A stretch of DNA of 64,000 nt from a virus. Position 1 is the stretch's first letter. Every line of letters starts with the position of its first letter. The notes beneath the pieces are model-generated. The model ran no database searches and had not been told where the DNA came from. It saw nothing but the letters and a program-made list of their open reading frames with translations. This document shows positions 1,488 to 11,357 of this stretch, one piece after another. The DNA lies in the IMG/VR virus record IMGVR_UViG_3300021185_002518, positions 1-64,000 of that record; one strand, written 5' to 3'. Both the position numbers and the translations under genes were made by a program.

Positions 1488-2267
1488 TTACAGGTAATCA
1501 AGCACTTGTGAGTGGTCTACGTTCTCGATTAGTTTATCTACTGCTTGCTTTTTTAACTGTGAAACTCTCACATAAGAGCTACTGCCTTCGATGCCTATTT
1601 TATCCGCAATTTCAGTAGCTGAATGCTTGTCGCAGTCTAACCCGTAGCTTAGTCTTAACACTTGATATTCTTTATCATTTAGATGACTTTTTAATAAGCT
1701 CATTAAGTACATGTTTAATAAATCTACGTTGTATGGCTCTGACTCGTCAGGTATGTCGTATATCATATCGTCTTCTGTTTTAGCGTCTATACTTAAGAAT
1801 ATAGAGTTGAAGAACATAGCTACAGCTTTTTTGTCTTTGCCAAAGTTTTTACGTATTTCGTTTAGCTTATGTTCTGGTATTCTCATATCACCTCTATTCT
1901 TATCAATACCTCTACGTATTGCACCTCGTATACGTTTTGCAAAAAACGATTTAATAGTTTTCTCAGTATCTTCAGACTCAGCTAGTGTTTGCCTGTCTAG
2001 TTTTTTAACAGCTTTACATAGGCCTAAGTAACCTTCAGATATAAGATCCATTATACTCATAACACCTGATGCTTGTTGTGATGTAGCAAACTTACGCGCT
2101 AGCGCTTCACAAAGTGGCATCCACATTTTTATAATAGTATCATTATCCATTGTTGTATAGTCTACATTACCTTCACTGTCTATAACTATATCTTGTTCTG
2201 TTCTCTTAAGTTCTGATTCAAGATCCTTCTTGTGTCTTATATATCCCTGTATGTTATAATGTTTCAT
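1488..2267 (-). CDS. Phage RNA polymerase sigma-70 family factor
   Basis: A 259-aa sigma factor. Region 2 spans about residues 72-121 (MDLISEGYLGLCKAVKKLD, then FFAKRIRGAIRRG), a region 3-like basic segment follows (127-165, MRIPEHKLNEIRK), and region 4 with its helix-turn-helix spans 193-250 (DKEYQVLRLSYGL, then SATEIADKIGI). Size and domain order fit alternative/group 3-like sigma factors that redirect host RNA polymerase. It starts on the TAATG of the 36-aa gene upstream. The same arm carries seven copies of a bipartite promoter-like element, the obvious candidate target; that link is inference. Confidence 0.9.
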   Translation of the reverse strand: MKHYNIQGYIRHKKDLESELKRTEQDIVIDSEGNVDYTTMDNDTIIKMWMPLCEALARKFATSQQASGVMSIMDLISEGYLGLCKAVKKLDRQTLAESEDTEKTIKSFFAKRIRGAIRRGIDKNRGDMRIPEHKLNEIRKNFGKDKKAVAMFFNSIFLSIDAKTEDDMIYDIPDESEPYNVDLLNMYLMSLLKSHLNDKEYQVLRLSYGLDCDKHSATEIADKIGIEGSSSYVRVSQLKKQAVDKLIENVDHSQVLDYL

Positions 2268-2377
2268 TAGTATGATCTTTTTTTATTTCTTATTTCAGTT
2301 AATTTATCTAGCAACTTACATGCTATCTCTTGGCTGATCTCATCAGCATAGTACATATCATATATTAATCTTCTCAT
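2267..2377 (-). CDS. 36-aa conserved-context small protein
   Basis: This 36-codon reading frame is tightly locked into the operon. Its ATG overlaps the stop of the upstream 207-aa gene as ATGA, and its own TAA overlaps the ATG of the sigma gene as TAATG. The product (MRRLIYDMYYADEISQ...) is predicted helical, acidic in the middle and basic at the end. The double coupling suggests a real protein, possibly a sigma-associated regulator; the function is unknown. Confidence 0.6.
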   Translation of the reverse strand: MRRLIYDMYYADEISQEIACKLLDKLTEIRNKKRSY

Positions 2378-2997
2378 AATTGTTGATTTAGTAATTCTTT
2401 TTCTCGTTTAAGTTCTTCACACATGTTACGCTGTATTGTTCTTGTTGAACAGTCTAATAAGCCTGCAATACTTGCTAGTGTTATTTTTTTACCCCATTCA
2501 TTTATATCTATCATGCATTGATAAATATCATCTTGGTGTATTTGTTTTGATCTACCTATTAACTTACCTACAATTTTTAGTTTGTCTTCCATAGATAAAG
2601 TACAATGCCAGTTAAATATAATTTTCCGCATTTTGTTTTTAGGTGGCTCATCAAGATCCATCATGCTTACCTCGTATATTATTTTTTTTAGTAATTGTGG
2701 AGGAACTGTAAAGGTAATAAAACCTTTTGACTTATCAGCTATATATTCACACAAATTTGTAAAATCATCTGGGTCAAGCTGCGGGTTTAAATACCACAGA
2801 ACTAACATGTGCCATTTTAATGATTTATAAGTTGTGATCTTTGCTCTACTTCTAAAGAGTGAATAATACTCATTTGTACCGTCTTCATAATAATTGTAAT
2901 CCTTAGTTTTCATACTAGGTTTATCATTAATAGGATCTCGTACCCATTGTATTTTACGCCTGTTTAGGTATTCTAGGTTTCGTGGTATATGTGACAT
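2374..2997 (-). CDS. Putative DNA-binding protein with C-terminal HTH
   Basis: 207 aa. The last fifth (residues 171-200) reads as a helix-turn-helix: ITLASIAGLLDCSTRTIQRN, followed by a Glu/Lys-rich helix. The N-terminal part is rich in basic and aromatic residues (NRRKIQWVRDP near 12-22) and the middle is helical. It lies immediately upstream of the sigma gene and probably shares its transcript. It could be a transcription regulator or a replication initiator; the sequence does not decide between these. Confidence 0.6.
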   Translation of the reverse strand: MSHIPRNLEYLNRRKIQWVRDPINDKPSMKTKDYNYYEDGTNEYYSLFRSRAKITTYKSLKWHMLVLWYLNPQLDPDDFTNLCEYIADKSKGFITFTVPPQLLKKIIYEVSMMDLDEPPKNKMRKIIFNWHCTLSMEDKLKIVGKLIGRSKQIHQDDIYQCMIDINEWGKKITLASIAGLLDCSTRTIQRNMCEELKREKELLNQQL

Positions 2998-4752: not shown

Positions 4753-5034
4753 CTATTTTTTGTATTTTTTTATTATTCTTTTCGTCTCGTCAATTCTGTT
4801 TTTTATAATAGCACATTTTTCGTACTCTTCGTCTTGCTTGCATATATCCATTAGTGTCATTAGCTTAGCTAATTCACCATATGCAGCAGCCTCTTCGTCT
4901 ATTTCTAGATCTTTGTACACTTTCCACGCGGCAGAAGATTCATTTGCATCAGCAAACCACTCTTCTAAAGACTTTAGCTTTATCATTTTGTCTACTATTT
5001 TTATAGCTAACGTTTCTAGTTGTTCGTTATTCAT
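4753..5034 (-). CDS. 93-aa acidic helical protein, unknown
   Basis: Two starts are possible: 5055 (MTKDNIYMNNEQ) and 5034 (MNNEQLETLAIK). The longer start lies inside the promoter-like element at 5035-5071, so 5034 is preferred; it would then need a transcript from further upstream or a leaderless message. The protein is helical and acidic with several Leu heptads and a basic C-terminal KKYKK. No family recognised. It is the first gene before the ligase and is spaced from it by nothing. Confidence 0.6.
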   Translation of the reverse strand: MNNEQLETLAIKIVDKMIKLKSLEEWFADANESSAAWKVYKDLEIDEEAAAYGELAKLMTLMDICKQDEEYEKCAIIKNRIDETKRIIKKYKK

Positions 5035-5071
5035 ATATATATTATCCTTCGTCATTCGTATTTAGTTTGTA
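5035..5071 (-). promoter_or_regulatory. Bipartite promoter-like element, copy A
   Basis: On the minus strand: TACAAACTAAATAC (5071-5058), a 10-nt spacer, then GGATAATATATATA (5047-5035). It lies within the last codons of the 131-aa gene and directly ahead of the 93-aa/ligase/sigma/ERF operon. It matches six other copies in both blocks and in spacer length. Confidence 0.65.
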
Positions 5072-5437
5072 TTTATCTATTAACTTATCAGGTTTACCTA
5101 CAAATATACACTTAAAGCACTGTACTTCTTCATAATCTAAGTGCCAAGTCATTGGACTGTAGTCACTTCTTTCGAATATACTAATCCACGTGTCTTTACC
5201 TTCTGCTTGCCATACATAATATATGTACTCAAGGTCAGTGTGTCTAGACTCTAACGGTTCCAGCTCCCAACCTTCAAGTTTCCTAGGGTAAATTAATGAC
5301 TCAGCTATTTCTACGCCTCTGTGTGACGGATAACCATCCCAGTGTGCGTAAAACTTAGCGTTTACTTTTTCAGGTAATTCACTAAATGATATACCTTCTT
5401 CGCGTGTAGCGAACCTAATTGATGCTCTCGTAGCCAT
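5042..5437 (-). CDS. 131-aa protein of unknown function, HWDGYP-type
   Basis: 131 aa. The segment MATRASIRF...KFYAHWDGYPSHRG (about residues 28-41) matches a widespread phage/bacterial family that starts M-x-T-R-A and has an aromatic HWDGY core; its biochemical role is not known to me. The last residues, YKLNTNDEG, are encoded by promoter-like element A, so this gene's tail and the next promoter share DNA. It starts on a TAATG overlap with the following cistron's stop. Confidence 0.7.
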   Translation of the reverse strand: MATRASIRFATREEGISFSELPEKVNAKFYAHWDGYPSHRGVEIAESLIYPRKLEGWELEPLESRHTDLEYIYYVWQAEGKDTWISIFERSDYSPMTWHLDYEEVQCFKCIFVGKPDKLIDKYKLNTNDEG

Positions 5438-5652
5438 TATCTATATTTTTTAGAGTTTGCTAGCGCTTTACTAGTAGTAAATATATCTATTTTACTTTGC
5501 ACCTCATCAATCATTTGTTCCCAGTACTGTTGAGTAATTATGGGCCTTTTGTCCTCTATTTTGTACGCTACGTGCGTCTTGATTAGCTCTCTTTTGAAAG
5601 CATCTATCATTTCGTCTAAGACTATTCTGTCTTGAATATTGAATTTTCTCAT
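5437..5652 (-). CDS. 71-aa helical protein, unknown
   Basis: MRKFNIQDRIVLDEMIDAFK onwards: a charged helical protein with a basic C-terminus (ANSKKYR). The stop overlaps the next ATG (TAATG at 5435-5439). No recognisable family; part of the small-gene bank. Confidence 0.6.
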   Translation of the reverse strand: MRKFNIQDRIVLDEMIDAFKRELIKTHVAYKIEDKRPIITQQYWEQMIDEVQSKIDIFTTSKALANSKKYR

Positions 5653-5659
5653 ATTTAAT

Positions 5660-5923
5660 TTAATCTAATAGAACCATATAGGCTCTGGAGTTATTACTTC
5701 TAAACCAGTCAAGACCTTTTTGAAAGTCTTTAACCATGTTAGGTGTTGTCATTTTTGGTGTCATTTCCATGACCATTTGGCTGCCGACAATAAAGTCGTA
5801 CATTGAAAGCTCTACGTTATTTAGCTCACATACCTCTCCGCTGAAAGGGTTTTTTACTGTGTCGCCGTGTGTATAGCATTGGCCTTTGAACCATGTTGGT
5901 AGTTTAGTATTCTGTTTCTTCAT
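5660..5923 (-). CDS. 87-aa protein, unknown
   Basis: MKKQNTKLPTWFKGQCYTHG start, with a GDTVKNPFSGE turn (19-29) resembling a small beta-barrel or SH3-like segment, then a helical C-terminal half (MTPNMVKDFQKGLDWFRS). It overlaps the upstream gene by 20 nt. Family not recognised. Confidence 0.6.
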   Translation of the reverse strand: MKKQNTKLPTWFKGQCYTHGDTVKNPFSGEVCELNNVELSMYDFIVGSQMVMEMTPKMTTPNMVKDFQKGLDWFRSNNSRAYMVLLD

Positions 5924-6173
5924 AATAGTAATGTTGTATTGTATTAATTAAGTGTCTGCCTGTTGCAGTTTGAAAACTATAGCTGTGAGTATGCATGCCA
6001 GGTATTGGATCATTAAAGCATAGTAGCTTTAACATGTCAAGAGCACTGTTATGTTGAAATTCAATAGCAGTTTGATTACAAGCGTTAGCTAGTTTGTCAG
6101 GGTCGTGTCTTAATTCTTGGTTGCTACGATCTTTCATATAGCTTATTAGTTTTTTAGTTGTTAGTGATTTCAT
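5904..6173 (-). CDS. 89-aa protein, unknown
   Basis: The frame is open from 6200, but ATG 6173 follows the upstream stop as TAATATG, the junction used repeatedly in this arm; ATG 6182 is also possible. The product (MKSLTTKKLISYMKDRSNQ...) has a basic helical N-terminus and a His/Tyr-rich tail (HTHSYSF, HYYYEETEY). No family recognised. Confidence 0.55.
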   Translation of the reverse strand: MKSLTTKKLISYMKDRSNQELRHDPDKLANACNQTAIEFQHNSALDMLKLLCFNDPIPGMHTHSYSFQTATGRHLINTIQHYYYEETEY

Positions 6174-6174
6174 A

Positions 6175-6540
6175 TTATTCATTTGTTGTTTCGTCTTCAT
6201 CAGCTTCTTTAAACAGGTTACATACTCTGTCTACTATTGTTTCGTGTAAATCGCTAGTGTCAAAGCTTATATTACTTAATGAAACTCTACCTTCATAATC
6301 TAGGTCATACTCAAGATCTTGATAGTTGTCTGTGTCAGTCCAGTCAAAGTTATTTAACACTTTTTCAACAGCATTATATATCTGATCCATTACTATAGGA
6401 GATAATTCTGGTTTGTTATAGTCTTCTAGTTCTTGTTGAGTTGCCTTTAACGTAGTTTCATAAGTAGCAGCAAAGTCTTTGTGCTCTGTGATCGCTTTTT
6501 CTAGACCTTCGATCTTGGTCTTTAAATCCATTTCATTCAT
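6175..6540 (-). CDS. 121-aa acidic coiled-coil protein, unknown
   Basis: Residues 5-40 form a heptad helix (LKTKIEGLEKAITEHKD...). The rest is strongly acidic (DWTDTDNYQDLEYDLDYEG) and it ends DEDETTNE. Acidic small phage proteins of this kind often mimic DNA or bind host enzymes, but nothing specific is seen. It is the first gene downstream of promoter-like element B, 19 nt away, with no Shine-Dalgarno sequence, and heads a set of at least five overlapping cistrons. Confidence 0.65.
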   Translation of the reverse strand: MNEMDLKTKIEGLEKAITEHKDFAATYETTLKATQQELEDYNKPELSPIVMDQIYNAVEKVLNNFDWTDTDNYQDLEYDLDYEGRVSLSNISFDTSDLHETIVDRVCNLFKEADEDETTNE

Positions 6541-6558
6541 ATTATTTAATTTTATTTG

Positions 6559-6594
6559 TATATATTATCCGACTCGTGTCGTATTTAGTTTGTA
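6559..6594 (-). promoter_or_regulatory. Bipartite promoter-like element, copy B
   Basis: Minus strand: TACAAACTAAATAC (6594-6581), 10 nt, GGATAATATATAC (6570-6559). It directly follows the U-tract ending the structured RNA at 6594-6761 and precedes the gene starting at 6540, so terminator and promoter are back to back. Confidence 0.7.
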
Positions 6595-6761
6595 AAAAGA
6601 GAGGGAGGGCAGGTGTGGTTCTTCTCCGAGTTTCGGTTGAGATACTGTCGTCTCAGCCGTAATGTTACCTTTCGAGCAACCTGTGACTGTACTTAGATAC
6701 TGTCTACTACCGAGTTTCGGAACTCGCTTTATCCTGCCGTTAAACCACCCAAGCCTCTCTT
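6594..6761 (-). ncRNA. Stem-closed structured RNA with terminal U-tract
   Basis: Read on the minus strand. AAGAGAGG (6761-6754) pairs perfectly with CCTCTCTT (6604-6597) and runs into five U. A second nested helix joins GGGTGGTT to AACCACACC with one bulge. Inside are hairpins CGAGTT-CCGA-AACTCG, GTTGC-TCGAAAG-GTAAC and GGCTGAGA-8 nt-TCTCAACC. CCGAAACTCGG and GACAGTATCT each occur twice. GGCAGG near the 5' side could pair with CCTGCC near the 3' side as a pseudoknot. No known family was matched. It may be a separate RNA or the 3' domain of the longer region. Confidence 0.55.
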
Positions 6762-7329
6762 ATAAAACAGGCAAGTGAGTAAGATACGTGACTAGTATTG
6801 TTACTTTGTGCCTTATCCCTTCACACTTATCTGGATCTACTTTACAAGAACCAAGCCTCGTAGTAGCTCATGGTCTGTCATTCTGCTACATTTAAAGTCT
6901 TTCGTCTAGACCAGAATCAGTCGAACCTTAGAGTTTGCACCCCACGCCCTGTTTTATATATGTTCTGCGTACCTATTGCGCCAGACTTACGAACATTTAC
7001 TTTGTTTTTTCCGTGTTTACTCACGACCACTTCGGATTCATTTATTGTGCGGATGGTGGGAGTCGAACCCACAATTTTAACCACCATTGGCATCAGATTA
7101 CTAAGTCAGCTAAAGTTTTATTCTATTGGAGATTTCGTAAAACGTCTATCCCAAACCTCTTTGTGACTGTTGTCGATTTTTCGCCTGCAAGGACCTATTG
7201 TCGTTTTCCGGATAAGTATGGCTCGACTTCGTTTCCTATTGGACCCACTTCGATCTTTGTTCTTCCATACTTAGCGGTACGTTCCCACATTACCATAAGC
7301 CTACTATTCACTTGCACACCCGCATGTAT
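6762..7329 (-). ncRNA. Gene-free, GC-rich structured region with tRNA T-arm
   Basis: No credible protein gene lies here, and base composition differs from the AT-rich genes around it. On the minus strand a perfect T-arm (GTGGG-TTCGACT-CCCAC, 7072-7056) is followed by CATCCGC and A. The 7-nt partner GCGGGTG lies about 270 nt upstream (7323-7317) rather than in a normal tRNA position. Other helices include AAGTATGG/CCATACTT, GTTTTA/TAAAAC, TGTTC/GAACA and TGGTCT/AGACCA. Not a standard tRNA, and tmRNA hallmarks are missing. It may be one large RNA together with 6594-6761. Confidence 0.5.
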
Positions 7330-7539
7330 TTAGCCTAACATAGTACCATAACCCCTGCGTTGAGTCATCTTGGCTATTCTAGCAGCGTCACTGCTTGACA
7401 TTATCTGAATCGAATTGCCGGTTTTGTGGTTTATTAGTGGTGCGCAACCGTATGATTCTACTGTTGAGCAGTTGACACACACACTAAAGCCAAGACGAAC
7501 TCTGCCAGGTGGTATTATATTTTTGCATTTACATTTCAT
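7330..7539 (-). CDS. 69-aa zinc-ribbon-like protein
   Basis: The open frame starts at 7569, but that ATG is inside promoter-like element C; ATG 7539 (MKCKCKNIIPPGR) is preferred. Cysteines are arranged C-x-C near the start, then C-x-x-C (VCVNC) and one more, as in small zinc ribbons. The C-terminus is basic (MTQRRGYG). It is the only protein gene between element C and the structured RNA region, so it probably shares the RNA's transcript. Confidence 0.6.
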   Translation of the reverse strand: MKCKCKNIIPPGRVRLGFSVCVNCSTVESYGCAPLINHKTGNSIQIMSSSDAARIAKMTQRRGYGTMLG

Positions 7540-7552
7540 ATTTATTGTTTTT

Positions 7553-7591
7553 GTATATATATTATCCAAAAGTAATCGTATTTAGTTTGTA
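7553..7591 (-). promoter_or_regulatory. Bipartite promoter-like element, copy C
   Basis: Minus strand: TACAAACTAAATAC (7591-7578), 10 nt, GGATAATATATATAC (7567-7553). It lies 14 nt upstream of the zinc-ribbon gene's ATG at 7539 and would also drive the structured RNA region. It contains the stop codon of the membrane peptide gene upstream. Confidence 0.7.
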
Positions 7592-7734
7592 AAAATATAT
7601 ATTAAAGGGTATATTGCTATGTAGTAGAGAAATATTGTTAGTAATACACCCATCCATATAAACAATACGAATAGTATTTTCTTTAATAAACTAAACTTTT
7701 TAAAGTTATTACTATCATTTAATAGTTTACTCAT
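7582..7734 (-). CDS. 50-aa membrane protein
   Basis: A basic N-terminus (MSKLLNDSNNFKKFSLLKK) is followed by a long hydrophobic stretch (about residues 20-48: ILFVLFIWMGVLLTIFLYYI) and ends IFTN. The ATG overlaps the upstream stop as ATGA, and the TAA lies inside promoter-like element C. A small inner-membrane peptide of unknown role. Confidence 0.6.
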   Translation of the reverse strand: MSKLLNDSNNFKKFSLLKKILFVLFIWMGVLLTIFLYYIAIYPLIYIFTN

Positions 7735-7904
7735 ATTCCAAATTGTATTCCTCCTTTCTCATGTACCATCCAATGACAGTCTTCCGAGTTAAACCCTATT
7801 CTTTCCATGTACTCTTCACATGTTTCTTCATCTATATTCCAATTATCTATCGTTAATTGATGCACTATTCCTGTGCCAAAATCTAATATTGTTATATACT
7901 TCAT
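7731..7904 (-). CDS. 57-aa acidic protein, unknown
   Basis: ATG 7904 (MKYITILDFGTG) lies 1 nt after the upstream stop; ATG 7916 would overlap it. The beta-rich start (ITILDFGTGIVHQLTI) and acidic helix (DEETCEEYMERIG) look like a compact folded domain with two cysteines. Stop/start overlap with the membrane peptide downstream is ATGA. Function unknown. Confidence 0.6.
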   Translation of the reverse strand: MKYITILDFGTGIVHQLTIDNWNIDEETCEEYMERIGFNSEDCHWMVHEKGGIQFGI

Positions 7905-7905
7905 A

Positions 7906-8043
7906 CTATTTTTCATACCATACTGCGTATATTTTTACGCCATTTACATTGTTAATTAATTTCTTTTCTTTTATTACCGCTTCAGTTACCTGGCTTTTGT
8001 CCACGTACTTAGGGTTTTTGCTGTTTAGTTTTCTTCTCTTCAT
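7906..8043 (-). CDS. 45-aa basic protein, unknown
   Basis: Begins MKRRKLNSKNPKYVDKSQ: very basic N-terminus, then KKLINNVNGVKIYAVWYEK. The start is 3 nt after the upstream gene's stop and the stop is 1 nt before the next ATG. Packing argues it is coding. Function unknown. Confidence 0.5.
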   Translation of the reverse strand: MKRRKLNSKNPKYVDKSQVTEAVIKEKKLINNVNGVKIYAVWYEK

Positions 8044-8046
8044 AGT

Positions 8047-8181
8047 TTATTCTTCTTCTGAGTATTTCTCTATTATCTCTTGTACTTCACATAGTAACAT
8101 TTCATCTATGCGCTCTTTAGTATAGTCTTCTTTTGCTAATTCAAAAGCTATATCCCATGGTGTTGCGTAGTATTTTATCAT
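8047..8181 (-). CDS. 44-aa acidic protein, unknown
   Basis: MIKYYATPWDIAFELAKEDY then acidic helices ending KYSEEE. Starts 1 nt after the upstream stop (TAATATG junction). Predicted helical; no family recognised. Confidence 0.5.
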   Translation of the reverse strand: MIKYYATPWDIAFELAKEDYTKERIDEMLLCEVQEIIEKYSEEE

Positions 8182-8182
8182 A

Positions 8183-8749
8183 TTATTGTAGTTTGTATTT
8201 ATGGCCATCTATTATTACTGTTACATCATTTATAGTATTTCTGTATTCATTCGCTCTTTGCTCGTGAAACTCTACGTTTTGCTTAGCAAGATCGAGTTTG
8301 TTTTGCAAGTTTTCAATTTCTTCAGAATTGTCAATATATACGTACTTAGTTGGTCTTACATTACTGTAATTTGCACGCTTTATAAACTCGTTCTTGATTA
8401 CATACTTCATCATATACTCGAGTCTATCGATTTCTATTGGTATTGTCTTGCATACTTTGCCTACATACTTTCTGTAGTCACCGTTTGATAGTTTGAAATA
8501 GCGAGGCTCGTCGTTAACTCTTTTGTTGATTTGCCAATTACTATGATGCTGCTTACCTTGATTTCTTACATAACCGCTCGCAAACGAACCATATTCGATG
8601 TGAGTATTACCTCTACCTTTCATTGGTAGTCGCCACACTATCGTGCCATTTTTTACTTGTGTTGGTGATGTAACGTCTTGTATGCCAAGTAGTTGCATCT
8701 GCTCGTATATTTTCTCATAGCGTGAGTCGCCTTTATATATTGTCTTCAT
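8183..8749 (-). CDS. 188-aa protein with C-terminal coiled coil
   Basis: The N-terminal half looks globular with beta features (KNGTIVWRLPMKGRGNTHIEYG). Residues about 145-175 form a coiled coil (SEEIENLQNKLDLAKQNVEF). The last segment, NDVTVIIDGHKYKLQ, is a short beta end. It heads a run of five smaller cistrons reading to element C. No family recognised; the largest protein of this sub-cluster. Confidence 0.65.
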   Translation of the reverse strand: MKTIYKGDSRYEKIYEQMQLLGIQDVTSPTQVKNGTIVWRLPMKGRGNTHIEYGSFASGYVRNQGKQHHSNWQINKRVNDEPRYFKLSNGDYRKYVGKVCKTIPIEIDRLEYMMKYVIKNEFIKRANYSNVRPTKYVYIDNSEEIENLQNKLDLAKQNVEFHEQRANEYRNTINDVTVIIDGHKYKLQ

Positions 8750-8757
8750 ATTATTAT

Positions 8758-9012
8758 TTAATCTAGTGAGTCTCTTGTACTCGTTGTTATTCCTGCTATT
8801 CTGTCAAGCGTTATTGCTTCTTTAATAGCTTTGTTCATTAAGTCTGAAGCGTGTTTACGTTTGTCCGCTTCTTCGCACCATGTTTTAGCATAGTTTAGTG
8901 CTGATTTAACACTTTGTTCGTACACTACAGTTTTAGCGCCGTAGTTGTCAGTTAGCGATACTTTGTAAAAGTTATCGTGAGAATATTGTATATTTATATT
9001 GTATTTACTCAT
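8758..9012 (-). CDS. 84-aa protein, unknown
   Basis: MSKYNINIQYSHDNFYKVSL with beta-strand character, then a helix (QSVKSALNYAKTWCEEADKRK). The ATG overlaps the upstream stop as ATGA. Such a beta-helix layout occurs in many small phage modulators; function unknown. Confidence 0.6.
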   Translation of the reverse strand: MSKYNINIQYSHDNFYKVSLTDNYGAKTVVYEQSVKSALNYAKTWCEEADKRKHASDLMNKAIKEAITLDRIAGITTSTRDSLD

Positions 9013-9194
9013 GACTTTGCAACTTTGTCAAAGATATAAGTGTAACCTTTGTGGTTGAACCATTCGCTAATGCCTTCACGTTCGTTGAACTCGATACAGC
9101 CAAAGTTAGCAGGCAAGTCGCACACAGTGTGTGGTTTGTAAATTAAGTTGTTGATTTGAACGTAGTCGTTTTTTAAGTATTTTATTTTATTCAT
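9009..9194 (-). CDS. 61-aa protein, unknown
   Basis: MNKIKYLKNDYVQINNLIYK; aromatic, mostly beta, ending GYTYIFDKVAKS. First gene after promoter-like element E (17 nt from the element), with no Shine-Dalgarno sequence. Function unknown. Confidence 0.6.
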   Translation of the reverse strand: MNKIKYLKNDYVQINNLIYKPHTVCDLPANFGCIEFNEREGISEWFNHKGYTYIFDKVAKS

Positions 9195-9210
9195 AATTTT
9201 TATAATTTCT

Positions 9211-9247
9211 GTATATATTATCCGTTAGTGTTCGTATTTAGTTTGTA
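9211..9247 (-). promoter_or_regulatory. Bipartite promoter-like element, copy E
   Basis: Minus strand: TACAAACTAAATAC (9247-9234), 10 nt, GGATAATATATAC (9223-9211). It encodes the last codons of the 52-aa gene upstream and precedes the 61-aa gene at 9194. Confidence 0.7.
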
Positions 9248-9376
9248 ATCGTACTCGTACTTTTGAGTGTCTTCATTCCATACTAAATCACCATTAATTA
9301 TTTCTTGCTCTCTCAGCTCTTCAAGTATCATTGCACCTGGTTTTTCTGCTGGTTTTTGTATATATTTTTTACTCAT
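9218..9376 (-). CDS. 52-aa protein ending in promoter-encoded YKLNTN tail
   Basis: MSKKYIQKPAEKPGAMILEE onwards; acidic. The final residues YKLNTNTNG and the TAA come from element E, just as the 131-aa gene ends YKLNTNDEG in element A. It starts after a TAATATG junction. Function unknown. Confidence 0.55.
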   Translation of the reverse strand: MSKKYIQKPAEKPGAMILEELREQEIINGDLVWNEDTQKYEYDYKLNTNTNG

Positions 9377-9377
9377 A

Positions 9378-9470
9378 TTAGTTTGTTATTATTAAGAAAC
9401 AGCACCAAGCGATGAACGTAATCCACGCAATTGCACCTATTTCTAGTATTATTCTACATATTTTCTCCAT
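9378..9470 (-). CDS. 30-aa transmembrane peptide
   Basis: MEKICRIILEIGAIAWITFI then AWCCFLIITN: essentially one membrane helix with three cysteines. Its ATG overlaps the upstream stop as TAATG and its TAA leads into the next ATG as TAATATG, so the reading frame is positioned like a gene. It may be a small inhibitor or a holin-like peptide; unknown. Confidence 0.5.
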   Translation of the reverse strand: MEKICRIILEIGAIAWITFIAWCCFLIITN

Positions 9471-9715
9471 TACTTTATTATTAGTTCATAACCTTCATAG
9501 TAATCGTCACTTAGTATTGATTTAGCTCGCTCTAACGCTTGTTCAAACGTGTTGAAGTTAGCACTACTACTTGACCAGTAAGAATCAGTTTGAGTCTTAC
9601 GCTCGCACGAGTAATGATTGTCACCGTGTCTTTCTACTACTACCGCTTTAATTTGTTTTACTGGTTCTGTTCTTGGTATAGAAAACCATAATCTTTTTAA
9701 TTCTTCTCTGTTCAT
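9470..9715 (-). CDS. 81-aa protein, unknown
   Basis: MNREELKRLWFSIPRTEPVK, a beta-rich middle (IKAVVVERHGDNHYSCERK), a Ser-rich loop (SYWSSSSANF) and a final helix with EQALERAKSIL. The Ser-rich loop between strands is reminiscent of small stress-type beta proteins, but no family is assigned. Confidence 0.6.
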   Translation of the reverse strand: MNREELKRLWFSIPRTEPVKQIKAVVVERHGDNHYSCERKTQTDSYWSSSSANFNTFEQALERAKSILSDDYYEGYELIIK

Positions 9716-9716
9716 A

Positions 9717-9887
9717 TTATATATTTGTTACTCCGTTATTTACTACTAACTTGTTTATAAAGTTATCCATCTGCTTTTCAGCTTGCTTTTGTTTTACTAA
9801 TTTTATTAAGAATGGAGTCATTTTCATTGCTTTATTATTAGATTTTTCTTGTTTATACTGCTTCCAGTGCTCGATTGCTTCGTACAT
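9717..9887 (-). CDS. 56-aa basic helical protein
   Basis: MYEAIEHWKQYKQEKSNNKA, then a Lys/Gln-rich amphipathic helix. Follows promoter-like element F by 17 nt and runs into the next gene through TAATATG. Function unknown. Confidence 0.55.
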   Translation of the reverse strand: MYEAIEHWKQYKQEKSNNKAMKMTPFLIKLVKQKQAEKQMDNFINKLVVNNGVTNI

Positions 9888-9904
9888 ATTTATTTGTTTT
9901 TACA

Positions 9905-9940
9905 TTTATATTATCTAAGAGTGTTCGTATTTTGTTTGTA
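9905..9940 (-). promoter_or_regulatory. Bipartite promoter-like element, copy F
   Basis: Minus strand: TACAAACAAAATAC (9940-9927, one mismatch to consensus), 10 nt, AGATAATATAAAT (9916-9905). It sits directly after the stop of the small lipoprotein gene and upstream of the 56-aa gene. Confidence 0.65.
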
Positions 9941-10078
9941 TTATCTACGCTCAGTGCACATCAATCTGTTACTTGTTGAGTCTTGAGTGCTTGCACAACT
10001 TGACATACAAAATATTGTTATTGCTACTATTAAAATTGTGTAGTAGTACACCGCTAAAAGTTTTATTACTTGTTTCAT
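9941..10078 (-). CDS. 45-aa putative small lipoprotein
   Basis: A basic start (MKQVIKLLAVYYY) leads into a hydrophobic helix (TILIVAITIFCM) and SSCAS, a plausible lipobox with Cys28. The mature peptide would be under 20 residues (CASTQDSTSNRLMCTERR). It may be an outer spanin-like or exclusion lipoprotein; its early location argues against lysis. It starts 15 nt downstream of the tRNA-like minihelix and ends against element F. Confidence 0.5.
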   Translation of the reverse strand: MKQVIKLLAVYYYTILIVAITIFCMSSCASTQDSTSNRLMCTERR

Positions 10079-10092
10079 ATTTATATTTTTAG

Positions 10093-10132
10093 TTGTAGTG
10101 TGAGAATCGAACTCACGAAAACCATTACTACA
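10093..10132 (-). ncRNA. tRNA-like T-arm/acceptor minihelix in a leader
   Basis: Minus strand: TGTAGT (10132-10127), a 10-nt linker, a perfect T-arm GTGAG-TTCGATT-CTCAC (10116-10100), then ACTACA (10099-10094) pairing with TGTAGT. This is the T-half of a tRNA without a recognisable D or anticodon arm. Upstream a 6-bp hairpin CTATTC/GAATAG also forms. It lies in the 113-nt gap between two genes, just before the lipoprotein ATG. Confidence 0.45.
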
Positions 10133-10191
10133 TTATTACTATTCATGTTTGATTATACGAGGGAATAGTGAACTAACTCGACTTTGTATTA

Positions 10192-10413
10192 CTACTCACA
10201 GATTTCTCTAGCAACTAGTGGAACGTTATTACTTGCAGTATAACTTTTGTACTTAATAAAGCACGCCATTTTTTCTAGTTTTTCTGACATTACTTCATAC
10301 ACTTTGTCGTGATTATAAGTAGCAGATTTGCCATTTTTGAAGTTTACTGTTATTACTGCGTTTTTACCGATTAGCGACTTGCGTATTACAAATCTTTTAG
10401 AATTTAATTTCAT
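10192..10413 (-). CDS. 73-aa basic protein, unknown
   Basis: MKLNSKRFVIRKSLIGKNAV, mostly beta with many Lys/Arg, then YEVMSEKLEKMACFIKYKSY. Follows promoter-like element G by about 37 nt. It could bind nucleic acid; no family recognised. Confidence 0.6.
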   Translation of the reverse strand: MKLNSKRFVIRKSLIGKNAVITVNFKNGKSATYNHDKVYEVMSEKLEKMACFIKYKSYTASNNVPLVAREICE

Positions 10414-10448
10414 AGTTTTTTTATTTATTTATTATTAATTTAATTTAG

Positions 10449-10487
10449 TTATATATATTATCTGTTTTGCGTTGTATTTAGTTTGTA
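10449..10487 (-). promoter_or_regulatory. Bipartite promoter-like element, copy G
   Basis: Minus strand: TACAAACTAAATAC (10487-10474), 10 nt, AGATAATATATATA (10463-10450). Precedes the 73-aa gene. The roughly 75 nt on its upstream side (10488-10563) holds a G-rich minus-strand tract (GTGGGGGTAGTGGG) but no gene. Confidence 0.65.
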
Positions 10488-10563
10488 AGAGTACTATTAT
10501 TATTTAGTTGCTATTTATCGTGCTCACCCACTACCCCCACGCTCTGACTGTGCAGTTATTTTA

Positions 10564-10677
10564 TTATAGTTTATTTATTAAATCGCTTAGCGTTATTTGT
10601 ATACTAGTTTTAGTTACGTTGCCTTCTAAGTATTGGTTTAATTCGTCGATTGCTGCTATAATTTCTGCATTTTGCAT
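10564..10677 (-). CDS. 37-aa acidic helical protein
   Basis: MQNAEIIAAIDELNQYLEGN followed by VTKTSIQITLSDLINKL. First reading frame downstream of promoter-like element H, 47 nt away. Well-formed amphipathic helices; function unknown and coding status likely but unproven. Confidence 0.5.
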   Translation of the reverse strand: MQNAEIIAAIDELNQYLEGNVTKTSIQITLSDLINKL

Positions 10678-10716
10678 AGTCTAGATTTTATTTAGTTAAT
10701 TAGTTTATTTGTTATC

Positions 10717-10754
10717 TATATATATTATCTAAATTGCTTCGTATTTAGTTTGTA
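10717..10754 (-). promoter_or_regulatory. Bipartite promoter-like element, copy H
   Basis: Minus strand: TACAAACTAAATAC (10754-10741), 10 nt, AGATAATATATATAG (10730-10717). It is the most upstream copy, next to the divergent intergenic region, and would open the whole leftward bank. Confidence 0.7.
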
Positions 10755-11036
10755 TAAAACGTAATAATTATGCAAAAATAAAAACGTAAAAATTACTATA
10801 AAAAAATTAATATATTTGTAAAAGCAAAAAAAAACGTACGAAACGAATAAGCGGGGGCGGGGCCCGGTAAATCGATTTGACTTTTATATTACCAACTAAA
10901 TTCGAGTATAGTGGGGCAACGCTATACCCCAATATTTACGATAACTTTTTTTATGGACATTAGCCAGTTATAGTTATCTAGTAACACCCTATTGTCCACT
11001 TTTAACATTCACCTAATACAGGTAACTATATTCTAT
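10755..11036. promoter_or_regulatory. Divergent intergenic control region
   Basis: No gene is seen in these 282 nt, which separate leftward from rightward genes. It contains an A-rich segment with TATATTTG at 10811-10818, matching the Bacteroidetes -7 box TAnnTTTG but without a clear -33 box. A GC-rich island (10851-10867, GCGGGGGCGGGGCCCGG) stands out in an AT-rich genome, and a hairpin GTATAG-10 nt-CTATAC (10906-10927) has GGGG in its loop and CCCC just after. It probably holds the rightward promoter; a replication origin is possible. Confidence 0.45.
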
Positions 11037-11357
11037 ATGAGAACACTTATACTAGCCATTACTTTACTATGTACAAATGTTAAGGCGCAGAGTCTAAACG
11101 AGGTGTTGTCTCTACATCAAGATAAACAGCTACACGTGGGTTATACGTACATTATATCTTCAGTTACCGCTAGCTATGTTTTGAAGAAAACTAACAACAA
11201 AAAGAAGGCAATTTTTATAGGCATCGGTGTCGGCATGACAATTGGTATTGCAAAAGAGGTTTATGATGCTAGAAATAGTGGTGCTCAAGGCAGTGATTTA
11301 ATAGCTGACTTAGTAGGTGCTACATGTGGGTCTTTAGTTATCACTATACCTTTTTAA
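11037..11357 (+). CDS. Exported/membrane protein, YfiM/DUF2279-like
   Basis: The frame is open from a TTG at 10992, but ATG 11037 gives a proper signal sequence (MRTLILAITLLCTNVKAQS). The mature part has DKQLHVGYTYI near residue 30, two small-residue membrane segments (FIGIGVGMTIGIAKEVYD and VGATCGSLVITIPF) and a conserved KExxDARN turn, the pattern of YfiM/DUF2279-type envelope proteins. In phages similar proteins occur near lysis genes. It is the first rightward gene. Function inferred only from layout. Confidence 0.6.
   Translation: MRTLILAITLLCTNVKAQSLNEVLSLHQDKQLHVGYTYIISSVTASYVLKKTNNKKKAIFIGIGVGMTIGIAKEVYDARNSGAQGSDLIADLVGATCGSLVITIPF

Follow-up and report, generated by a model that had tools for sequence, protein, structure and literature searches.

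We report a bipartite element that occurs in seven minus-strand copies in a 64,000-nucleotide stretch of viral DNA (hereafter, the window) and recurs across a clade of uncultured phages. We consider it a dedicated early or middle promoter for host core RNA polymerase working with a phage sigma factor and aided by an HTH protein, and we put the probability of this reading at about 70%. The element keeps its geometry and its placement ahead of genes, is linked to the sigma and HTH genes, and belongs to a clade in which host-type promoters are not enriched. As judged from these sequences, the element would be transcribed, with the sigma factor binding to it and the HTH protein contributing.

The phage and its seven copies of the element

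The window is part of a 69,748-base (69.7-kb) record of an uncultured phage, identified as such by its terminase, portal, capsid, and GroEL, which match phage families. By terminase and portal, the closest annotated records are MW202828 (unclassified), Maribacter phage Panino, Elemovirus, and Cellulophaga phi38:1 (Pervagoviridae), with Pachyviridae as more distant kin. The phage is related to podoviruses of Flavobacteria (phi38:1, Elemovirus, Panino), and Flavobacteria are probably the hosts of the sigma-carrying clade. The leftward arm runs from 10754 down to 1 and then from the right end of the record down to 63056; it holds small unknown genes, ligase, HTH, sigma, ERF, and exonuclease genes, plus three genes assigned by eye (helicase, thymidylate synthase-like, and ribonucleotide reductase-like). 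The virion genes make up the rightward arm.

All seven leftward-pointing copies described by the sequence-only reading were found (Table 1), six of them exact and the one at 9940 with two mismatches, against a chance expectation of 0 in dinucleotide shuffles. Motif search on both strands of the whole 69,748-base record gave no eighth copy, and a backwards-read control motif had 0 matches in the same record. The rightward (late) arm thus lacks the element, as had been noticed by eye. A 451-site matrix found exactly these seven copies and none in cultured relatives, with scores of 40–46 for the window copies versus maxima of at most 9.8 in Markov sequences, values that are conditional because the site collections started from a pattern. 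Element 7, the most upstream copy, sits where the early and late arms diverge. Separately, the record holds an extra half-site, TACAAACTAAATAC, without a −10 (record position 66481-66494), and a noncoding stretch of about 730 nt follows the gene of element 3. A conserved putative RNA maps to 10080-10190.

Table 1. Coordinates of the elements, the divergent region, and the proposed readers in the window
Feature	Position	Strand	Remarks
Promoter element 1	5037..5071	−	Inferred +1 A at 5034 = A of ATG; leaderless gene 4753-5034
Promoter element 2	6560..6594	−	Inferred +1 A at 6557; leader 17 nt; gene 6175-6540
Promoter element 3	7557..7591	−	Inferred +1 A at 7554; leader 15 nt; gene 7330-7539
Promoter element 4	9213..9247	−	Inferred +1 A at 9210; leader 16 nt; gene 9009-9194
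Promoter element 5 (2 mismatches)	9906..9940	−	Inferred +1 G at 9903; leader 16 nt; gene 9717-9887
Promoter element 6	10453..10487	−	Inferred +1 A at 10450; leader 37 nt; gene 10192-10413
Promoter element 7	10720..10754	−	Inferred +1 A at 10717; leader 40 nt; 37-aa ORF from 10677
Divergent region between early (−) and late (+) arms	10755..11040		Holds conserved GGGGcaacACtatACCCC..TTTATAA block
Sigma-70-family factor, 259 aa, proposed reader of the element	1488..2267	−	Pfam, PHROG, structure model
HTH-domain protein, 207 aa, proposed co-factor for outer half of box	2374..2997	−	Directly upstream of sigma

Six copies end 16–42 nt before the ATG, in line with the 15–50 nt first proposed; the copy at 5071 departs from this, ending 2 nt before it, and its transcript would be leaderless, as predicted from the ATG at 5034. 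The spacer proved to be of fixed length, TAC and GATAAT being 11 nt apart in 311 of 313 family sites, but its bases are not fully variable as had been thought: the first two are GA in six of the seven window copies (93% and 96% across the family).

Geometry, start site, and spread

The consensus of 471 pooled sites is T-ACAAAc-TAAATAC-GA-N7-T-R-GATAAT-A; the site sets differ by test, the matrix using 451 sites and the spacing 313. In the proposed mechanism, GATAAT would be the −10 and ACAAAcTAAATACGA an upstream box (−36 to −22), and transcription would begin 7 nt after GATAAT at a purine, at times the A of the start codon. When the upstream half-site was searched in 11 whole genomes with up to two mismatches and without use of the −10, GATAAT stood exactly in the expected place at 79 of 91 half-sites (79 of 79 on the early strand). 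This search, and the sigma-first and upstream-region tests below, were designed to avoid pattern-based selection. An ATG opening an ORF follows within 60 nt of 87% of sites in 11 genomes, as compared with 19% of random positions.

A purine lies 7 nt after GATAAT in 467 of the 471 sites (99%), and an ATG begins exactly there in 86 (18%); one base to either side, an ATG begins in only 1–2 sites (<0.5%). The purine and the ATG peak at this one offset pin the putative +1 and place GATAAT at −12 to −7, and with the ATG at +1 in nearly a fifth of sites, many mRNAs would look leaderless. No SD-like word was found in the leaders of the 329 sites that have one (0/329). In Flavobacterium psychrophilum, 5.5% of mRNAs are leaderless (PMC9723704). 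The start site also bears on whether the element is an operator (bound by a repressor or a replication protein) or part of an RNA leader, with no core promoter. The upstream box, at 15 bp, does exceed a usual −35, but a strict purine and an ATG peak at one offset fit only a transcription start, and where the ATG is +1 (18% of sites) the element would be wholly outside the RNA; we regard this explanation as highly improbable.

We found the element in at least 116 stretches in an exact-pattern scan of IMG/VR. Twenty large contigs, picked mostly for having the motif, carry 4–16 copies each on one strand only (control, 0), counts that represent non-independent events because the contigs are related to one another. 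The typical number in marine relatives is 4–12, on the early strand; the figure of 16 comes from one 129-kb record resembling two genomes. Contigs picked by terminase only and seen to reach the leftward arm (L045, L073, G023, and G024) also have the element. No convincing copy was present among 50,697 public phage records.

Outside this phage group, an exact copy occurs in four Flavobacteria MAG contigs: in one it neighbors a tRNA at the contig end, in another it precedes a TerB-like gene, and in two it precedes members of one secreted-protein gene family. We estimate that well under one such copy would be expected by chance. A host regulon was considered and rejected, as whole host genomes hold only 1–2 copies. 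In a Prochlorococcus single-cell assembly, one copy lies in a phage-like contig of another kind (assigned by eye), and the gene that it precedes has homologs in these phages. The element had been proposed as a phage-specific early or middle promoter. Its position, orientation, fixed spacing, +1 purine, ATG peak, and absence from the late arm back the promoter part; the specificity is that of a whole clade rather than of a single phage, given its clade-wide occurrence and the few stray exact copies in Flavobacteria chromosomes.

Host-type promoters, the phage sigma factor, and its HTH neighbor

The element differs from the Bacteroidetes TTTG/TAnnTTTG promoter, as first noted: it does not have TAnnTTTG at −7 with TTG near −33. 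Upstream of genes in sigma-minus relatives, TAnnTTTG is enriched (MW-like, 112 vs 30.6; elemoA, 14 vs 2.8; MW202828, 9 vs 1.3; Gundel, 14 vs 4.5; Panino, 14 vs 6.5; phi18:3, 11 vs 5.2; phi38:1, 7 vs 2.4), and the element is absent. Upstream of genes in the sigma clade, TAnnTTTG does not exceed background (13 vs 14.9) and the element stands at 43 vs 0, so host-type promoters were rejected there for lack of enrichment. The clade has probably swapped the TAnnTTTG host-type promoters used by its relatives for the element. A search for late promoters gave nothing convincing; the word TATATTATAT was rejected as a late promoter, since it forms the leader of the gene that follows the capsid terminator.

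That the clade has no remaining host-type enrichment would also suit a virion-packaged or other phage RNA polymerase as reader, as in crAss-like or N4-like phages, and the virion genes encode giant proteins of 2755 and 2961 aa, one with a crAss muzzle C-terminal domain. However, neither protein matches a polymerase family, and a DxDxD scan gave one match, at chance level; on these grounds, a virion RNA polymerase in the giant proteins was rejected. Moreover, Gundel and other sigma-minus relatives have giant virion proteins yet use host-type promoters, and the spacing is typical of a sigma-type −10 whose +1 follows seven nt later. A phage polymerase as reader is therefore very improbable.

The reader that we favor is host core RNA polymerase with the phage sigma factor, whose region 2.4 is unlike that of the host at the −12 residues. 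The protein has the two sigma-70-family regions expected to handle core binding and −10 recognition (region 2) and −35 recognition (region 4): Pfam Sigma70_r4 matches at E 1.6e-5 (24.7 bits; cut-off 24.1) and Sigma70_r2 at E 2.5e-4 (21.2 bits, slightly under the cut-off of 24), regions 2.1–2.4 align to SigA at 1e-11 in a profile search, and PHROG 351 matches at 6e-21. Its structure model resembles sigma factors. The best PDB sequence matches are primary sigmas, the profile also matches FliA structures, and the region 4 HTH has a short insertion relative to host RpoD. The sequence-only reading had overlooked both this gene and the neighboring HTH gene.

The sigma gene is present in 20 of 20 large motif-selected contigs and in none of six related records, a co-occurrence that is phylogenetically non-independent; sigma and element might each mark the same clade independently, and this possibility counts against our proposal. 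Among contigs with the motif and no sigma gene, G066 and G069 end within the ligase gene, short of where sigma would lie, and in the rest the motif cluster sits at the edge of the contig. We rejected motif-without-sigma genomes as apparent, since the contigs appear cut before the sigma position. Starting from sigma instead, the element was found in 86 of the 92 loci that extend 8 kb or more upstream (646 sense vs 11 antisense sites); five of the other six have variant elements of the same architecture, and L503 has none that is clear. Most sigma genes are without an element of their own, the nearest usually being 1–4 kb upstream.

E. coli promoters have T at −12. In the element, G at −12 is invariant in all sites of the matrix set. 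In region 2.4 of all 37 phage sigmas compared, W433-W434 are replaced by K-R, Q437 by G, and T440 by R, where host RpoD has W-W, Q, and L; the register of the E. coli row in this comparison matches alignments to solved SigA. Residues Q437 and T440 read −12 in E. coli (PMC2613000). The apparent match of R/G in sigma with G at −12 is a correlation between two invariants. Mutual information between sigma columns and element bases was dominated by variable columns and gave no informative association. A link between the −13 base and sigma was rejected, as none was seen: G019 has two element sets that differ in their −13 preference and nearly identical sigmas, so this base does not track sigma.

Alternatively, the element may be an early promoter for the host polymerase with its housekeeping sigma, possibly assisted by an activator bound at the upstream box, leaving the phage sigma for other (late) genes. 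The elements do lie ahead of the small genes closest to where the arm begins, on the upstream side of the sigma gene, as if firing first; the late genes show no element and no host-type promoters, which would leave room for sigma to act on them; and a few exact copies occur in host chromosomes. Nevertheless, GATAAT is not the flavobacterial TAnnTTTG, sigma-minus relatives use TAnnTTTG and never the element, whole host genomes hold just 1–2 copies, and the boxes vary concertedly between genomes, as a phage-encoded reader would predict. We therefore consider the housekeeping sigma an unlikely reader. With the phage sigma as reader, the position of the element does not fix early versus middle timing, because a sigma-dependent promoter cannot fire before sigma exists; the first sigma supply might come from a weak host-type promoter, a virion-carried sigma, or weak use of the element by host polymerase.

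The adjacent HTH protein probably helps by touching the outer part of the box. Among 150 sigma loci with sufficient DNA, 147 have its gene immediately or a short way upstream of sigma, and 35 of 36 homologs match HTH_11; against the PDB, its best overall-fold E value was 0.38, which is no match. Neither it nor sigma had a tblastn match in any of the 50,697 phage records. In G075, G076, and G077, two of which are near-identical, the HTH gene is absent anywhere in the record, and CGAAA or CGAAT replaces ACAAA in six copies each with unchanged geometry. HTH loss and box change may be a single evolutionary event. Boxes also differ in genomes that keep the gene (L506 and L582, TATAAG-type; L542, L565, and L495), so the HTH link is only suggestive. 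We tentatively propose, at somewhat less than even odds, a two-part system: a sigma without the region 2.3 tryptophan pair would read GATAAT and the inner box, and the HTH protein the outer box, with its loss accompanying the rewriting of ACAAA to CGAAA in every copy across the genome; host specificity would have been left in both arms, and many mRNAs would be leaderless.

Significance and comparison with known systems

Transcription control is little known in marine Flavobacteria phages. Our analysis offers a promoter class predicted at single-base resolution, together with candidates for its reader and partner, and relatives with host-type promoters provide a contrast that makes the switch in promoter specificity testable. 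Since sigma, partner, and element lack matches in the public records, the system would be that of a large uncultured group, in which the element flags putative transcription starts and leaderless genes in many genomes from metagenomes.

The crAss-like virion RNA polymerase system likewise belongs to podoviruses of Bacteroidetes and shares the muzzle domain, but no polymerase was found in the virion proteins here. The sigma-A promoter of Flavobacteria and other Bacteroidetes (−33 TTG, −7 TAnnTTTG) is enriched in sigma-minus phages and missing from the element. Sigma-28 (FliA) promoters (TAAA..GCCGATAA) resemble the element in the GATAA core of the −10 and the upstream TAAA; however, TAAA and GATAA are 18 nt apart in the sigma-28 consensus and 14 nt apart here. 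In SPO1 (gp28 with gp33/gp34) and T4 (gp55/gp33), a phage sigma and its partner redirect host core polymerase to phage promoters. The proposed pairing is similar, although the promoter sequence differs and the proteins here have no match among the public phage records. T4 middle promoters (MotA/AsiA) also combine a phage box near −30 with a sigma-type −10 at fixed spacing and, as may be the case here, a small DNA-binding partner. For its middle genes, T4 supplies no sigma and remodels host sigma-70, whereas the present phages encode a full sigma beside an unrelated HTH protein, and their −10 is GATAAT.

Element copies and sigma genes in other genomes

Three of the four exact copies of the promoter-like element on Flavobacteria MAG contigs precede host genes on long chromosomal contigs (see table).

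Among genomes with additional sigma genes, one (locus L565) bears a second sigma factor, ECF-like and assigned by eye, close to the pair formed by the phage sigma-70-family gene and its HTH-protein neighbor, and the element in this genome takes a variant form. The IMG/VR record G019 (129,537 bases; locus L136) contains two sigma genes and two element clusters, which differ in their preference at position −13 (A versus T/C); this record is probably a join of two related genomes.

Coordinates of the features discussed
Feature	Location	Strand	Context
Exact element copy	L361 4720-4750	+	Flavobacteria MAG contig
Exact element copy	L363 324-354	+	Flavobacteria MAG contig
Exact element copy	L364 149-179	-	Flavobacteria MAG contig
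Exact element copy	L365 4275-4305	+	Flavobacteria MAG contig
ECF-like second sigma factor	L565 7970-8491	+	near sigma/HTH pair
Upstream half-site	L008 16481-16494 (record 66481-66494)	-	
Conserved block region	window 10755-11040		divergent intergenic
Noncoding stretch, ~730 nt	window 6595-7330	-	between elements 3 and 2
TpsiC-like hairpin	window 7056-7072	-	inside noncoding stretch
Conserved structured RNA	window 10080-10190	-	downstream of element 6

Half-site and divergent region

The upstream half of the element also occurs as an exact match without the −10, approximately 35 nt upstream of the next gene start, and is perhaps a decayed promoter. Between the divergent arms, the block GGGGcaacACtatACCCC..TTTATAA is conserved in 11 genomes, and the region possibly represents a late promoter or an origin.

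Structured RNA on the early strand

The conserved RNA consists of an acceptor-like stem enclosing a TpsiC-like hairpin, plus a pseudoknot. Across 10 relatives, paired cells amounted to 98.6%, against at most 53% in slid controls, and two-sided changes were found at seven pairs. ARAGORN predicted no tRNA in this RNA, and no Rfam family reached the gathering threshold. Another TpsiC-like hairpin lies within the noncoding stretch, and the early strand of relatives often carries a single genuine tRNA, specific for Met, Arg or Asp.
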